DNA of 64,000 nucleotides, taken from Massilia sp. R2A-15. GTDB taxonomy: Bacteria; Pseudomonadota; Gammaproteobacteria; Burkholderiales; Burkholderiaceae_D. The notes beneath the pieces are model-generated. The model ran no database searches and was not told the DNA's origin. It was given only the letters and a program-made list of their open reading frames with translations. The stretch covers positions 620,001 to 684,000 of the forward strand of contig NZ_CP131935.1 of assembly GCF_030704305.1 (NCBI RefSeq). Direction: 5' to 3'. Positions 8,021-14,437 of the stretch are shown here, in pieces. The position numbers were made by a program, and so were the translations under genes. The number at the start of each line of letters is the position of its first letter. Within the stretch, counting starts at the first letter, position 1.

Positions 8021-8224
8021 CATCGATGCCATAAGGAATAATAGGGGGTGCCGCTGTCTCGGCCATCTGGACTGAGCGGCGGCACGGTGTTATAGAATTT
8101 TGCGTGTGAACACCACTTCAAAACACTGAGAACTCAACCGACGCGCCATCAGCCCGGTAATTCCGTCCCCTCCCACATCACCGCGCTCGGCCGCTTGGCA
8201 TCTATATTTGTGAAGGTCGCTTTT
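8021..8224. other. Intergenic stretch at left edge of island
   Basis: No gene is seen. An imperfect hairpin (TGCCGCT at 8049 with AGCGGCGGCA at 8075-8084) lies here without a T run. The base composition starts to fall in this stretch, marking the transition to the accessory island. Confidence 0.4.
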
Positions 8225-8569
8225 TCATTGCCCTGCATCGCCTTTGATCACCCCAGCTTCTAGCTTGTTGCGAATACTCTGTAACGCAGCATCCAAACCT
8301 CGTGTCAAGACAACTGTCGGTGCAGGAAAGAGCATCTCTAACCCGACACTTCGCCGGAAACCTTGCACGATTCTAAGTAGCACCAAAACCGAATCACACT
8401 GCCCCAATTCAAATCGCTTATATGTGCGCAGTGGGATCGCGCAGGTCTTGGCGAAATCGCTCTGGGTGAGTCCCAGGCGCCGACGCTCTAGCCTGGCCCG
8501 ATCTGCCAAAAGCGTTCGCAGTTGTACCGCGTCTAAGTGGTCAGCGTTTTCAAATTTAGGTAGTGGCAT
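8225..8569 (-). CDS. XRE-family HTH regulator (HipB/antitoxin-like)
   Basis: 114 aa from the ATG at 8569. Residues 20-75 form a helix-turn-helix of the XRE type (LGLTQSDFAKTCAIPLRTYK followed by a Glu-Leu-Gly turn), and the LEMLFPAP ending of the domain resembles HipB-like antitoxins. A longer reading to 8632 would translate through the perfect palindrome at 8577-8592, which looks like an operator, so the shorter start is preferred. It is divergent from the unknown gene at 8716. No HipA kinase is nearby; the closest candidate partner is the ImmA-like metallopeptidase encoded from 9915. Confidence 0.85.
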   Translation of the reverse strand: MPLPKFENADHLDAVQLRTLLADRARLERRRLGLTQSDFAKTCAIPLRTYKRFELGQCDSVLVLLRIVQGFRRSVGLEMLFPAPTVVLTRGLDAALQSIRNKLEAGVIKGDAGQ

Positions 8570-8576
8570 CTGAAAA

Positions 8577-8592
8577 GTGCCAAAGTTGGCAC
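8577..8592. promoter_or_regulatory. Perfect palindrome, candidate XRE operator
   Basis: GTGCCAA-AG-TTGGCAC is a perfect 7-bp inverted repeat ending 8 bp upstream of the XRE start codon. Position and symmetry suit an autoregulatory operator for an HTH dimer that could also affect the divergent gene at 8716. Confidence 0.55.
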
Positions 8593-8715
8593 CAAGTGAT
8601 TTAATAAGATGTGAATAACTCCAGTTTACCATTGATTGGGCGTAATATTCCCTTAGCCATGCAGCCCGAACGGGCTCGGATTGCGAGCGTTGTGCGACGA
8701 ACCAAGGAGAGTGTA

Positions 8716-9669
8716 ATGTTGATAAAAACCAGGATTCGCAAACTGACCGGGCATTTACAAGATTTTAAGGTCGGGGATCAAATTTACATCATCCTTCCGG
8801 ATTCGAACCGGCATTTGGAAAAACTGGGAGAATTAGGATACACAATCCCACTTCAGGCCGGGGAATATCTATTGCCTTCAGGAAAATTCGGACGTGCTTC
8901 TCGTCGAAATGCGAATGGCTTTGAAATCATACACCGAGACAGACCGAAGGAAGTTCGCTATCAGCAAATACAGTGGACTTGGAAAGAACGTCATGGCGTT
9001 GATACGGTGGAGAAAACGGGGATCAAAGAGCGACCGTACTACAGATACCCGCGTACTCAGACTCCACCCTACAGCCTTGAGCTTCGGATCGAAAAAAACA
9101 AAAGCGGCGATTTCATTATTGCTGCGGGCCCCATCAAGCTCGCGGATATGGAAGCACAACTCGATCTAACCAACGCAATTCATATGTTCGTGGAGATTTT
9201 CGGAGAGTGTTATCTTTCCGTGAAGCCAATTGGGGAGGCGGCGCCAGTTGTTCGGCGGCAACTAAACTGGGAGATATTGCCGCGAGGAGCTTGGCCCCGC
9301 GAGAAGATCGTCGAGGCGATGGAACGCGTCATTAACCAGGCGACAGCTTCAAATCAGATAGTTCTTCGTTCGAGATTCAATGAAATCGCGGCGCATCGAC
9401 CAAATTTCACAGCCACAGGACGCAACGGTTTTTCGAAGTACGTAGTGCACGGCTGGGAGAAGGCCAACTTATACTTGTTGGAAAGTACAGAGGTGAACAA
9501 TGCGACATACGTGCTGAAGGACAATTGGGAAGCCGTTTCAGCAATGACCAAAGCGAACATTCTTCATACTAACGCCCACCACGCACGCATGGTTCATCGA
9601 GAAAGTTGGTTTCGCGATCTCCAAAACTTGATGCATTCACACGAAATACCCCGTGAGGCAGATGAGTGA
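8716..9669 (+). CDS. Unknown 317-aa protein in accessory island
   Basis: The ATG at 8716 is chosen because AAGGAG lies 6 bp upstream; an in-frame ATG at 8611 would run over the regulatory region. I do not recognise the protein. It appears soluble, with a basic first half containing several Tyr/Pro stretches (ERPYYRYPRTQTPPYS) and a mixed alpha/beta second half. It is visibly lower in GC than the flanking chromosome and uses AT-ending codons. It stands between the XRE repressor and the cyclodeaminase-like/metallopeptidase fusion, so it may be the output or partner protein of that module. No catalytic motif is evident. Confidence 0.75.
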   Translation: MLIKTRIRKLTGHLQDFKVGDQIYIILPDSNRHLEKLGELGYTIPLQAGEYLLPSGKFGRASRRNANGFEIIHRDRPKEVRYQQIQWTWKERHGVDTVEKTGIKERPYYRYPRTQTPPYSLELRIEKNKSGDFIIAAGPIKLADMEAQLDLTNAIHMFVEIFGECYLSVKPIGEAAPVVRRQLNWEILPRGAWPREKIVEAMERVINQATASNQIVLRSRFNEIAAHRPNFTATGRNGFSKYVVHGWEKANLYLLESTEVNNATYVLKDNWEAVSAMTKANILHTNAHHARMVHRESWFRDLQNLMHSHEIPREADE

Positions 9670-9914
9670 CGCGCGTTGGCGATGGATGCAGACACGACGT
9701 GGTTAATTCGGCAGGACGTATACGCTGCGACTACGTGTGTTCGAGGGACACTGCAGTTTCTACTTATTAGTCTCGCTCCGAAAATACACTTTCGTGACGA
9801 CAAGTTACCTAACCGCTTCGCCTTGAACATCCCGCCGAGGTTAGCCTGCTTAGGCGCTTCTGAACAATTTCGTTGTGTTGCGTGGCACTGGCTCCAAAAA
9901 TAGAGTGATCAATA

Positions 9915-11321
9915 ATGAAAGACTATCTCCAGCTTTCTGCAAGTGACCTGTTAGAAGAATTCGGAGGTGGCGGACACGCCCCTGGTTCGGGCAGTGCAGC
10001 AGCCCTTATCGGATTATTGGCCGCGAATTTGGTGTACACGGTCGGACAATTGACCGTCAAAAGGTCAAAGTACAAGCAGTACCATGATGAGGTTGATGCT
10101 AGCTGCGCGAAGATCCAAACTGTGTTGATCCCCACACTTCGTGAATTGCTGCAGCGCGATGCCGAGGCGTTTGATGCTGTCTACCAAGCGCGAGTGGCAC
10201 GCGATGAAGCAGTCGATCCGAAGGAGGGTGCAAGGCTACAGGCAGTCTCGCTGAATGAACAGAAGCTTGCGATAGCAATCCCGTTCAAGATTGCTGAAGC
10301 ATGCCTTGAATTGATTGAAATATCGGCGCGAGTCTTTGACGTTGGCTTCCAAGCGGCGCGGGGTGATACTGGGGTCGCGCTGAGTGCTGCGGTCGCCGGG
10401 GTGCTGTCAGCGGTATTCGTGATCAATTTGAACTTGGCGCCTTTCAAGCGAAATTACTGGGCGCGCCAGCGAAGACATGAATGTGATCAACTCCATGCGC
10501 TAGCGATGGAAAAGTACACGGGGACGCTCGAACGGGTTGACGCGCTGCGTTCTGAGGACGTCGATGTTGTGGAAGAAGACGAACTCGCGGTTGCTATTAC
10601 CGGCTTGTTGTCGGGGGCAAAAGCAACATACAGTGATGTAGATATTGATGAACGCGCAGGGGAACTACGCGCGCTCGTTTGGAGAAAACGTAATGAACTT
10701 TGGCCGACAGACCAGGTGCCTACCGACCCTGTTGAACTCCTCAATCCGGAGGTGGCACTCCGACTCTTAGGTTATGGATTTTCTCTGGAGGAGAGCTTGG
10801 GTACATTTCCTTCTACTGCAGGGACACTAGAGGTTGCAGGTTTACTGGAAGCAGTAAAAGGAAAGGTCAGTGTCTCTAGACAAATGAAGTCAGATGTTCG
10901 ACTTTTCACCTCTGCGCATGAATTAGGGCACATCCTTCTACATCCGCAATTGAAGGAAGCGCATCGCGATAGGCCACTTAACGGGACGGTGGTGTCGCGC
11001 AATCTAATAGAGCGAGAGGCGGACAGATTTGCTTCGAGTTATTTGATGCCGTCGCGGCTGGTTACAGATCGATTCCTAAAGACATTCAAAACCGATCGAT
11101 TTGCACTTTCTGAAGCCACGACGTTCGCACTATGGGGATCTGGCGCGGAAGCCAGCCGGCGAAAGGTGAAGAATCGTCGAGAGCTCGCATTCACGCTCGC
11201 TACTGCAGTTCGATACAACGGGAGACAAGTGGTCTCTCTTGCCCACCAATTCAAAGTATCCCCCACGACGATGGCTATTCGGCTTGAAGAGCTAGGGCTG
11301 ATTTGGTTTGATCAACATTGA
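9915..11321 (+). CDS. Cyclodeaminase-like / ImmA-IrrE metallopeptidase fusion
   Basis: 468 aa. Residues 1 to about 205 resemble the helical cyclodeaminase/cyclohydrolase family (FTCD C-terminal domain): the HAPGSGSAAALIG segment matches its PxPGGGSxAA signature and is followed by the usual YxxYHDEV and RDAEAFDAVY helices. Residues of about 230-468 match the ImmA/IrrE peptidase family: an ELRALVWRKRNELWP lead-in, the zinc motif HELGH at 335-339 and the third-ligand segment EREADRF with Glu368. ImmA-type peptidases often cleave a partner XRE repressor, and an XRE gene lies 1.3 kb away. The function of the first domain here is unknown. The 245 bp before the gene hold no supportable feature. Confidence 0.82.
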   Translation: MKDYLQLSASDLLEEFGGGGHAPGSGSAAALIGLLAANLVYTVGQLTVKRSKYKQYHDEVDASCAKIQTVLIPTLRELLQRDAEAFDAVYQARVARDEAVDPKEGARLQAVSLNEQKLAIAIPFKIAEACLELIEISARVFDVGFQAARGDTGVALSAAVAGVLSAVFVINLNLAPFKRNYWARQRRHECDQLHALAMEKYTGTLERVDALRSEDVDVVEEDELAVAITGLLSGAKATYSDVDIDERAGELRALVWRKRNELWPTDQVPTDPVELLNPEVALRLLGYGFSLEESLGTFPSTAGTLEVAGLLEAVKGKVSVSRQMKSDVRLFTSAHELGHILLHPQLKEAHRDRPLNGTVVSRNLIEREADRFASSYLMPSRLVTDRFLKTFKTDRFALSEATTFALWGSGAEASRRKVKNRRELAFTLATAVRYNGRQVVSLAHQFKVSPTTMAIRLEELGLIWFDQH

Positions 11322-11340
11322 TGCCTTGAAAAACACGGAA

Positions 11341-11445
11341 ATACGGGGTCAAGTCTGCCATTCCGACACAAGTTCAACAGTACGATCAGCTCAGAACGCC
11401 AGGGAGTGTCGAGGCTGTGGCCGAATGGCAAACTTGACCCCGTAT
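11341..11445. repeat. Long inverted repeat (GGGGTCAAG type)
   Basis: A 23-bp arm at 11341-11363 pairs with 11423-11445 with one mismatch; the arms contain GGGGTCAAGT and ACTTGACCCC. Inner CGACAC and GTGTCG at 11364 and 11406 extend the stem. It lies between convergent genes of the island and could act as a bidirectional terminator or be a REP-like element. Confidence 0.75.
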
Positions 11446-11485
11446 GCTCGGCCCCTTGGCAACCTGCTAGTTCAGCGGCGTCACG

Positions 11486-13036
11486 CTAAGGGTGCAGCGG
11501 CTTTTGACATAGGATCAAGATTTCTTTGGCTCCCTTGTCGTTAAAACTGGCTTTCTGGCCCCACGCACCCAATTTCGCATACTGAACATCGAGAATCTCG
11601 AATCCGATCTGCGCAAAAAGCCTGCGAACACTCTCTGCTGAGTATCGGCGGTCACGAACGACGAGCTCACACGGAGCCACTTTCTCACTTTCAAACTGCT
11701 CGCGTCGGTAAGCGACACCAACTTCTTCATGCCAAACGAAAAACGAAGGGTCGAAAATAGCACCGGTCGTTTGCATGATGTTGGATGGTGGTAGGTCCAG
11801 CAATTTGTTCGCTAAGTCGCTGCGATTGGCTCGGTTAGTAGCCAAATAATCAGTTAGTTCGCCATTCATAACAGAAGCAAGAAATTTCCCACCAGGCTTG
11901 AGGTGGAAAAACGCGGTAGCAAGTAGCTTTGCATTCTCTGCATCCGCAGCGAATGACCCGATAACGTCATAGAGGCAAATCGCGTGGTCGAATCTGACTG
12001 CGGACCGCCATTCTCTGGCGTCGGCGGCAACGAACCCAGCTTTGTCTGAGAGGTCTTCGGAAGAAACATTTGCTTTCGCATTCAGGATCAGCTTGGTCGA
12101 AGCATCCACGCCATAGCAAATGTATCCGCGTCTAGCTAATTCGATGGAATGTCTGCCCGCGCCACAACCGAGATCTAGGATTTTGGCGTCCTCTCTGGGT
12201 TGAATCGACCGGATGAGAAAGTCAATTTCGGAGGGAGTATACGCTTGCCATTTGTGTGAGGTGTCCAGCGTCATACTTTCGTACGCATCTGCAACAGTGC
12301 GATCACAGTCTGCAACCCATTCTTCCACAAGTGAGACTGCGTCATCGGAATATGGCTGGTGATCAAAGGTGAATGCAGCCCATTCTTCGGTCGCGCGGAG
12401 ATCACCCAATTGCCATTTGTATGCCTTTTCGGACAAGGTCTTCAAAGACGCATCCGAATCGGAATGGTCAAGCGCGAAGTGTGTGTTCAATGAACTCGTT
12501 CCATCTCGCAGTTCGACGGAAGCCGTCCGGATATATCCAAGATTTGGGGCGGCCGCAGCGCGAAGGAGTTGCCAGTCGGCATTGATGTGCGCTAGGTTGC
12601 ATCGTCGTAATGTCGCTTTCTCCAATGCGCGAACCGCCGCAGGATTTGCTGTCACTAATCCCCACGCGTATTGCTGAGATTGACTCCAAATCGACCGTAG
12701 TATTCGAGTTCCTAAGCCACGATTCTGGTGCTCTTTATGAACGACGAACTGTGTTACCCACGTGACGTAGCCTTTTTTCTCGATTAGCAGGCGTTGAAAG
12801 AATGCGTATCCGATCAACACATCGTCCAAGTACGCGAGAGCGGACCACGAGTCCGGTGCGGCCAAGTATTGACTCTTGAGTTTGCTGGCCTGTTGCATTA
12901 CCGGTTTGCCAGCCTTGTCCTTCGATGCTTCAGGCCCCCATTTTCCATAGTACGCACAAAACAACGCAGCGCAGTCACCGAGAATCTTCTCAGTGATTTC
13001 ACCTGCTCGGACCCATATGATCTTTTCAACCTGCAT
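11486..13036 (-). CDS. GNAT acetyltransferase / SAM methyltransferase fusion
   Basis: 516 aa. Residues of about 1-160 fit a GNAT fold, with the acetyl-CoA loop NRGLGT at 105-110 inside a VTQFVVHKEHQNRGLG strand-loop-helix. Residues of about 255-510 form a class I methyltransferase with motif I (ILDLGCGAGRHS) starting at 286 and an acidic loop GVDAS at 309-313. About 90 residues join the two. GAGGAAA precedes the ATG. The pairing suggests modification of one small molecule or peptide by both acetylation and methylation, as in toxin or antibiotic tailoring or self-resistance, but no substrate is indicated. It is lower in GC than its surroundings and closes the island. Confidence 0.85.
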   Translation of the reverse strand: MQVEKIIWVRAGEITEKILGDCAALFCAYYGKWGPEASKDKAGKPVMQQASKLKSQYLAAPDSWSALAYLDDVLIGYAFFQRLLIEKKGYVTWVTQFVVHKEHQNRGLGTRILRSIWSQSQQYAWGLVTANPAAVRALEKATLRRCNLAHINADWQLLRAAAAPNLGYIRTASVELRDGTSSLNTHFALDHSDSDASLKTLSEKAYKWQLGDLRATEEWAAFTFDHQPYSDDAVSLVEEWVADCDRTVADAYESMTLDTSHKWQAYTPSEIDFLIRSIQPREDAKILDLGCGAGRHSIELARRGYICYGVDASTKLILNAKANVSSEDLSDKAGFVAADAREWRSAVRFDHAICLYDVIGSFAADAENAKLLATAFFHLKPGGKFLASVMNGELTDYLATNRANRSDLANKLLDLPPSNIMQTTGAIFDPSFFVWHEEVGVAYRREQFESEKVAPCELVVRDRRYSAESVRRLFAQIGFEILDVQYAKLGAWGQKASFNDKGAKEILILCQKPLHP

Positions 13037-13201
13037 CGACGTTTCCTCTGGCTCAATTCAAACGGCAGTATCGCAGAAGTTTTGCGAGTTTGTTTTCGGG
13101 CCGGTGTTTAGACTGTACTCATGCGTGCATGCGAGGCCCGCACCCATACATCTGTTCAGCACATTCCGGGCGCACGCGTTTCGTACCTGCGCCTCGTCGA
13201 C

Positions 13202-14437
13202 TTACACGACGCGTCGCTGGCGCATTGCTGAAATCTCATCATCGCTGCGGCCAAGCACTTCCCGCAGCACCTCGTCGGTGTGCTGCCCCAGCAGCGGCGG
13301 CGCGGTCGCGGCGCCGGCCGGCGTGGCCGACAACTTCATCGGGCTGCGCACCAGCGTCACCTTGCCGGCGGTCGGGTGCGGCATATCCACCGCGATGCCG
13401 CGCGCCTGCACCTGCGGGTTCTCGAACACTTCGCCGATGTCGTTGATCGGCCCGCACGGCACGCCGACCGCCTCCAGCCTGTCGATCCATTCGTCGCGCG
13501 TGCGGCGCTTGACCATCTCCTCAAGCAGAGGCACCAGCACCGCGCGGTTCTGCACGCGCAGCGGATTGGTGACGAAGCGCGGATCGGTCGCCAGTTCGGC
13601 GCAGCCACCGGCTTCGACGAACTTGACGTACTGGCCGTCGTTACCGGTGGCGACGATGATGTGGCCGTCCGAGGTGGCGAAGGTCTGGTACGGCACGATG
13701 TTGGCGTGCGCGTTGCCCCAGCGTTTCGGCGCCTTGCCGGTGTTGTGGAAGTTGCTGGCCATGTTGGCGAGCATCGCCACCTGCACGTCGAGCAGCGCCA
13801 TGTCGATGTGCTGGCCTTCGCCGGTGCGGTCGCGGTGTGTCAGCGCGGCCAGCACCGCCACGGTGGAATACATCCCGGTCATCAGGTCGACGATCGCGAC
13901 ACCGGCCTTTTGCGGCCCGCCACCGGGCAGGTCGTCGCGCTCGCCGGTGATCGACATGAAGCCGCCCATGCCCTGGATCAGGAAGTCGTAGCCCGCGCGG
14001 TGCGCGTACGGTCCGTCCTGGCCGAAGCCGGTCACCGAGCAGTAGACCAGGTCCGGCTTGATCGCCTTCAGCGATTCGTAATCGAGGCCGTAGCGCTTCA
14101 GGTGGCCGACCTTGAAGTTCTCCAGCACCACGTCGGCGTGCGCCGCGAGTTCGCGCACCAGCGCCTGGCCTTCGGGCGTGGCGATGTCGCACGTGACCGA
14201 GCGCTTGCCGCGATTGGCGGCGAGGTAGTAGGCCGCTTCGGTGGTGTCGCGGCCTTCGGCGTCCTTGGCGTACGGCGGCCCCCACGCGCGGGTGTCGTCA
14301 CCGGTGCCAGGACGCTCGATCTTGATGACGTCGGCGCCCAGGTCAGCGAGGTTCTGCGAGCACCACGGTCCCGCCAGCACGCGCGATAAATCGAGTACGC
14401 GGATGTGGCCAAGGGCCTTCGGTAATTCTGGGGTCAT
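13202..14437 (-). CDS. CaiB/BaiF CoA-transferase family protein
   Basis: 411 aa, a class III CoA-transferase. The opening LGHIRVLDLSRVLAGPWCSQ and the downstream DVVLENFKVG and GYDFLIQGMGG stretches are typical of the CaiB/Frc family, which moves CoA between carboxylic acids through an aspartyl-CoA intermediate. AAGGAA precedes the ATG with 7-bp spacing. The gene is not visibly co-transcribed with neighbours. Substrates could be any of several carboxylic acids (carnitine-, succinate- or aromatic-type) and cannot be told apart here. Confidence 0.93.
   Translation of the reverse strand: MTPELPKALGHIRVLDLSRVLAGPWCSQNLADLGADVIKIERPGTGDDTRAWGPPYAKDAEGRDTTEAAYYLAANRGKRSVTCDIATPEGQALVRELAAHADVVLENFKVGHLKRYGLDYESLKAIKPDLVYCSVTGFGQDGPYAHRAGYDFLIQGMGGFMSITGERDDLPGGGPQKAGVAIVDLMTGMYSTVAVLAALTHRDRTGEGQHIDMALLDVQVAMLANMASNFHNTGKAPKRWGNAHANIVPYQTFATSDGHIIVATGNDGQYVKFVEAGGCAELATDPRFVTNPLRVQNRAVLVPLLEEMVKRRTRDEWIDRLEAVGVPCGPINDIGEVFENPQVQARGIAVDMPHPTAGKVTLVRSPMKLSATPAGAATAPPLLGQHTDEVLREVLGRSDDEISAMRQRRVV

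Follow-up and report, generated by a model that had tools for sequence, protein, structure and literature searches.

A conserved protein joining a divergent cyclodeaminase-like domain to an ImmA/IrrE-type metallopeptidase in Massilia sp. R2A-15: a possible ligand-switched regulator

The window analysed here, a stretch of 64,000 nucleotides of Massilia sp. R2A-15 (contig NZ_CP131935.1, positions 620,001 to 684,000), carries a gene (9915..11321, forward strand) whose 468-aa product joins an N-terminal FTCD_C domain to an ImmA/IrrE-type zinc metallopeptidase. The fusion is a conserved protein, and its first domain belongs, together with free-standing relatives, to a clade with an altered set of near-invariant residues, which we write FTCD_C*. 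We see an even chance that FTCD_C* has been repurposed to sense a ligand and so to switch the peptidase within a mobile regulator of stress or defence. The architecture itself has already been named by automatic annotation; what would be new is a sensor of this kind attached to an ImmA-type peptidase.

The fusion protein and where it occurs

The open reading frame (ORF) of the fusion is unbroken from its ATG at 9915 to the end of the stop codon at 11321. Pfam places the FTCD_C domain (PF04961) at residues 10-191 (9942..10487, forward strand, as for all parts of this gene) with 111.9 bits against a cut-off of 24.5 (E 3.8e-32). The match lies above the curated cut-off and is near complete, spanning positions 3-181 of the 182 in the profile, and no formiminotransferase domain is found by Pfam in the protein. 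The peptidase half, residues 235-468 (10617..11318), consists of lead-in helices, an M78 core and a C-terminal part, with Peptidase_M78 (PF06114) matching residues 322-393 at 40 bits (cut-off 22, E 4.1e-10). Within it lie the zinc-binding and catalytic motif HELGH (residues 335-339, 10917..10931) and the motif EREAD (residues 366-370, 11010..11024). Across an alignment of 64 fusions, H335, E336, H339 and E366, presumably the third zinc ligand, are invariant, and D370 is kept in at least 90% of the rows. In a confident structure model (mean predicted local distance difference test score, pLDDT, 92.1; predicted template modelling score, pTM, 0.61), the first half is predicted to take the cyclodeaminase fold of FchA and the second half the peptidase fold of CapP and IrrE. 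The original prediction had proposed these two domain families in one frame without a break, and it stands in this respect: profile and predicted fold agree for each domain, the ORF is intact and the zinc ligands persist in homologues.

A homologue search covering 5.8 billion proteins, in which the best 8000 candidates were scored, gave 161 matches at E up to 1e-5, of which 120 were listed. Both domains are present in 98 of the 120 listed, the window protein included, while 21 have the peptidase only and one has FTCD_C only; the pairing thus excludes a chance fusion and an assembly error. HExxH occurs in all 98 fusion homologues, each of at least 390 aa, the second peptidase motif fits a strict pattern in 90 of them, and a PG[SA]G[SA] loop is found in 96, whereas the two that lack it are short proteins of 393 and 437 aa. 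Among the named sources are Rugamonas rivuli, Janthinobacterium, Rhizobacter, Balneolaceae, Methylococcaceae, Mucilaginibacter and Chitinophagales, and the proteins go by the public names 'cyclodeaminase/cyclohydrolase family protein' or 'ImmA/IrrE family metallo-endopeptidase'. The earlier impression that this architecture is a rarity therefore gives way to a conserved family that public sources have already named. Among the titles and abstracts listed in searches of the open-licence literature, none treats the combination.

Across genomes, the gene is seldom found and its distribution is patchy. Complete fusions turned up in 4 of 392 genomes of the bacterium's own family, in 1 of 369 of its class and in 1 of 398 of its phylum (overlapping samples, the single genome in both being that of the window), and in two genera in 1 of 40 and 1 of 74 genomes. 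Four other genomes of the same genus gave no match, and a scan of named genome contigs yielded one relative, OM1. Neither the 72,556 plasmid records nor the 50,697 phage records contained a match to the fusion protein, and scanning viral contigs with the fusion alignment returned peptidase-only matches among the best 80 of 201. With residues 1-215 as the query, no other partner domain appeared among 35 proteins (best 8000 candidates scored).

The nearest relatives of the peptidase half outside the fusions are M78-only proteins (P0099-P0120 without P0103; loci L128:9803-10750, L129:1350-2297 and L141:7060-8025). These NPYAY relatives are 44-50% identical to the peptidase half among the matches listed, but in place of FTCD_C* they have a short N-terminal part with the motif [ND]PYA[YHF], present in 19 of the 21 listed proteins. 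The front part of the peptidase therefore appears exchangeable. In a more distant clade of solo M78 peptidases, two members adjoin ribonucleotide reductase genes: these sister-clade peptidases lie between nrdA and nrdB in genome G764 (L131:8144-12968) and beside an nrdB piece in G656 (L130:1321-2534).

Altered residues and free-standing relatives of the first domain

For the N-terminal domain, the alignment combined the 64 fusions with 43 close relatives that stand free (41 from alignment A2 plus the copies of genomes G209 and G801) and 23 other FTCD_C proteins from genome searches, called metabolic-type here for their FchA-like sequence only. All three groups retain P23, G24, G26, D82, F86, D151 and N173, apart from one exception at D151 (63/64 fusions, 43/43 free-standing, 23/23 metabolic-type). 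The metabolic-type letters G25, M42, Y93, P96, K/R97, N145, S150, N169, D179 and F182 are each found in 22-23 of the 23. Instead of these, residue 42 is T in 63 of 64 fusions and all 43 free-standing relatives, residue 145 is F in 57/64 and 38/43, and residue 182 is W in 59/64 and 38/43. The glycine-rich loop at residues 23-27 (9981..9995, forward strand) reads PGSGS, with S25 in 59/64 fusions and 43/43 free-standing relatives and G in 23/23 metabolic-type proteins. The N-terminal HAPGSGSAAALIG had been taken as typical of the family, but the 23 metabolic-type proteins read PGGG[SG], and it is the divergent clade, the window protein included, that PGSGS marks.

Three arginines are among the residues gained. 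An R93-x-x-R96 pair (10191..10202, forward strand) stands in place of the metabolic-type LPK-motif region: residue 93 is R in 63/64 fusions and 43/43 free-standing relatives and Y in 23/23 metabolic-type proteins, and residue 96 is R in 61/64 and 42/43 and P in 22/23, a comparison in which it is firm that LPK was lost and RxxR gained, while the exact pairing of columns is not. Directly before the shared D151, where metabolic-type proteins mostly read I-S-D, lies R149-G150 (10359..10367, forward strand), with R149 in 58/64 fusions and 43/43 free-standing relatives, and G150 in 64/64 and 43/43 against S in 23/23. Alignments with the structures of FchA (7vg4) and FTCD (1tt9) have the metabolic-type letters at 150, 169 and 179 and the LPK motif near 96, though their gaps fall differently at 94-99. 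Unlike these two proteins, the fusion lacks S150, N169, D179 and the LPK motif, has gained R93, R96, R149, G150 and W182, and is joined to a peptidase with no formiminotransferase domain detected. P96, S150, N169 and D179, which 22-23 of the 23 metabolic-type proteins keep, are replaced, while D82, D151 and N173 remain. The FchA equivalog model of NCBIfam, MthfCyhylaseFchA (NF045657), gives the fusion 87.5 bits against a cut-off of 275.

In a quick tree of 22 of the 64 fusions, 23 of the 43 free-standing relatives and the 23 metabolic-type proteins, fusions and free-standing relatives lie on one side of a branch with a support of 100 in the Shimodaira-Hasegawa-like approximate likelihood ratio test (SH-aLRT); long branches meet in this tree, and its internal details are unsure. 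On this sequence evidence, FTCD_C*, made up of the fusions and the free-standing relatives, is a clade apart from the metabolic proteins. As to the number of fusion events, quick trees place the fusions in more than one group. A single fusion clade was not rejected by the approximately unbiased (AU) test. For FTCD_C*, p was 0.32, with 18 of the 64 fusion rows set against 31 other sequences (23 of the 43 free-standing and 8 of the 23 metabolic-type) and long-branched rows left out; for the peptidase half, with 21 of the 64 fusion rows, it was 0.608.

The free-standing relatives offer a second view of the domain. With the copy encoded by genome G088 as the query, 182 proteins were found, and all 120 listed have FTCD_C as their only precomputed Pfam domain. 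In G088, a gene for an 81-aa XRE protein (HTH_3, 47.5 bits) precedes the FTCD_C* gene by about 25 bp, and the pair adjoins Gabija (GajA 739 bits, GajB 750 bits; L015:9973-15122). In G209, it is the last gene of a same-strand run, a candidate defence operon, with PDC-M65A (120.7 bits), PDC-M65B (250.2 bits; L016:9123-15574) and a PDC-M30A-like gene; for PDC-M65, the open-licence literature gave no match. The copy of G801, with a G+C of 0.436 versus 0.638, has no recognised partner. With Gabija in G088 and PDC-M65 in G209, two of the three readable free-standing loci therefore stand in a defence neighbourhood, a linkage drawn from a small sample (n = 3) with no control rate for ordinary genes. 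Free-standing FTCD_C* had no match in the same plasmid and phage records or in viral contigs, and 300 genomes of the order plus 15 of the genus of G209 yielded none that was new.

The surrounding insertion and the neighbours of other fusions

The fusion gene lies on a 5.2-kb stretch of low G+C (8022..13239), with 0.513 against 0.65 in the rest of the window. Same-genus genomes were probed with the neighbouring coenzyme A (CoA)-transferase gene; four of five matched, that of the window included, and three relatives were fetched. In all three of their loci, sequence matching about 8020 is followed after 45-134 bp by sequence matching about 13240, and because the flanks are this close together in three of three, 8022-13239 is an insertion here or a loss in the three relatives. 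The R. rivuli copy has a G+C of 0.502 versus 0.646 further away, in a low-G+C stretch wider than the gene. The copies in OM1 (0.622 versus 0.631) and genome G213 (0.534 versus 0.534) are near their surroundings and give no added support for mobility. The explanation we favour takes the fusion gene to be a switch that has moved horizontally.

Several other features share the insertion. A weak XRE/Cro-type helix-turn-helix (HTH) protein of 135 aa (8225..8632, reverse strand; HTH_31 E 0.0084 and an RstR-family model E 8e-5, both below cut-off) is encoded 1.3 kb from the fusion gene and is a candidate substrate of the peptidase, possible but unproven. A 317-aa protein (8716..9669, forward strand) has relatives in 16 plasmid records (best E 2e-45), and its longer reading, from 8611, has no Pfam match up to E 1. 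The plasmids carrying these relatives come from several phyla, and in one case the relative lies near UvrD-helicase and AAA ATPase genes. The reverse-strand gene at 11486..13036 encodes a 516-aa protein with GNAT acetyltransferase and S-adenosylmethionine (SAM) methyltransferase domains, as assigned by Pfam; the PADLOC mad2 model covers its methyltransferase part only. An imperfect palindrome of 105 bp with 39-nt arms (11341..11445) lies directly 3' of the fusion gene and may represent a terminator or a repeat element; allowing one mismatch, its half-site is present twice more in the genome. The sequence preceding the XRE and fusion genes contains one 11-nt imperfect inverted repeat and no other repeat or palindrome; a promoter scan gave no sigma-70-like site, a negative of little weight.

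Within 3 kb of the fusions of R. rivuli, OM1 and G213, the scan of neighbours took in 82 ORFs with a length of 65 aa or more. PADLOC matched SoFic (E 2.9e-31) and AbiEi (E 2.9e-18) in one ORF each, the Fic and AbiEi_1 genes being those of OM1. Weak or unassigned matches were to PDC-S04, PDC-S24, SduA and PD-T4-6, the last two in a histidine kinase of R. rivuli. In OM1 (L013:6145-12033), a ParA/AAA_31 ATPase gene ends some 35-45 bp upstream of the fusion on the same strand, and the AbiEi-like and SoFic-like genes lie on the fusion's other side.

A possible sensor for the peptidase and competing explanations

Relatives of the peptidase half are known to act on repressors. PMC2701414 describes ImmA as cutting its XRE-type repressor (ImmA-ImmR), and PMC10904395 presents PprI-DdrO and CapP-CapH likewise as peptidases cutting XRE-type repressors. 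PprI is reported there to be activated by single-stranded DNA (ssDNA), for which its GAF-like domain is needed (PMC10904395). The fusion differs from each of these. IrrE/PprI of Deinococcus (3dti, 8sln) has the GAF-like domain after the peptidase, whereas the added domain of the fusion is FTCD_C* and lies in front; compared with CapP (7t5t), the fusion has an N-terminal FTCD_C* in addition. The ImmA/COG2856 peptidases that are paired or fused with XRE proteins share with it the HExxH peptidase and the Pfam family, but in the fusion the same-chain partner is FTCD_C*. An input domain coupled to a peptidase is probably the most economical reading of such a protein.

The explanation we favour would work as follows. 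FTCD_C* derives from the cyclodeaminase/methenyl-tetrahydrofolate (THF) cyclohydrolase fold, with some conserved residues lost, others retained (the glycine loop, D82, D151 and N173) and three new arginines. It would bind an anionic metabolite (a nucleotide, or a derivative of folate or pterin) that changes in level under stress or phage infection. Binding would alter the shape or assembly of the protein and so release the C-terminal ImmA/IrrE/CapP-type zinc peptidase. The released peptidase would cleave a regulatory protein, most probably a repressor of the XRE type, and stress or defence genes would be turned on. A new ligand is suggested because residues have been exchanged and have not decayed, and an anionic one because of the three new arginines. 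That the first domain may have become a ligand sensor or a scaffold was already part of the original prediction; the altered set of near-invariant residues and the two of three free-standing relatives among defence genes lend it indirect support.

Several observations weigh against this explanation. Among the strongest is the missing constant XRE neighbour: no HTH family occurs among 25 of the 27 Pfam families around the three other fusions, so the fusion does not always have an XRE neighbour, and the weak XRE protein of the window has no relative in those loci. For the four proteins of the insertion, PADLOC (E up to 1) gave only shared-domain matches and no full defence system, and no component of a cyclic oligonucleotide-based antiphage signalling system (CBASS) was among them except the peptidase half's own capP match; around the R. 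rivuli and G213 fusions, PADLOC found no full system either. The OM1 fusion has SoFic- and AbiEi-like genes close by, which points in the opposite direction to the absence of HTH families near the three fusions. The pairing of R93 and R96 with metabolic columns depends on the alignment, which has gaps near residues 94-100, R93, R96 and R149 as one spatial site are putative, and the relative placement of the two domains in the model is unsure (pTM 0.61). Finally, at E up to 1e-4, the genomes G088, G209 and G801 encode no separate protein closely related to the peptidase half; G209 has one generic M78 match of 27 bits. FTCD_C* and the peptidase are thus not an obligate pair. A split fusion, with a free-standing FTCD_C* and a separate peptidase, is not supported by these three genomes.

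Other explanations have to be set beside the sensor. It is unlikely, though not far-fetched, that FTCD_C* senses nothing and only keeps the peptidase assembled as a dimer or a larger ring, raising its local concentration or shaping its cutting site. Such a scaffold would suit a predicted fold that is a plain helical bundle like that of FchA, and FTCD is an octamer according to the title of entry 1tt9, but a scaffold need not keep G24, G26, D82, D151, N173, R93 and R149 near-unchanged down to 32% identity to the window protein. We consider it improbable that the domain is still an enzyme, acting on a substrate of the folate or pterin type, perhaps one not used before, which the three arginines would hold, with the peptidase as a second or regulatory activity. 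The glycine loop, D82, F86, D151 and N173, kept in all three groups, and the 87.5 bits still given by MthfCyhylaseFchA would fit an enzyme. However, that score is far under the cut-off, S150, N169 and D179, which all 23 metabolic-type proteins as well as 7vg4 and 1tt9 have, are replaced, and the folate pathway is not represented in 25 of the 27 Pfam families near the three other fusions. An ordinary folate enzyme with a tail was rejected on the NCBIfam score and the changed conserved residues, and it stays among the rivals.

It is quite improbable, in our judgement, that the protein is a stand-alone killer, an abortive-infection peptidase which cuts an essential host or phage protein, with FTCD_C* as its trigger or restraint and no repressor involved. 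The lack of HTH families around the other fusions fits such a killer, as no travelling repressor would be needed, and so does the R. rivuli fusion, which has no obvious partner gene beside it; yet the peptidases of this family that the cited papers describe cut XRE-type repressors (PMC2701414, PMC10904395), and one free-standing FTCD_C* pairs with an XRE gene (G088).

A bolder form of the sensor explanation, which we offer tentatively and with some doubt, makes FTCD_C* a new class of ligand-sensing domain in stress and immune control. It would have given up folate chemistry, acquired a three-arginine site and been plugged into ImmA-type peptidases and placed beside an XRE protein next to Gabija, where it would sense an imbalance of folate, pterin or nucleotides and release defence genes by proteolysis. 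Such an imbalance would be expected to arise once a phage has commandeered the synthesis of thymidylate and nucleotides. To our knowledge, the switch is known for few ImmA-type peptidases. One case is that of ssDNA acting together with an added domain, as described in PMC10904395. Because the domain attached in the fusion is an identifiable metabolic-enzyme fold with a changed set of residues, its signal would be directly searchable. The proteins filed as cyclodeaminases in public databases appear to include a non-metabolic clade, part of which lies in defence neighbourhoods. Should FTCD_C* turn out to be a sensor domain, bacterial stress and immune control would gain a new type of input module.
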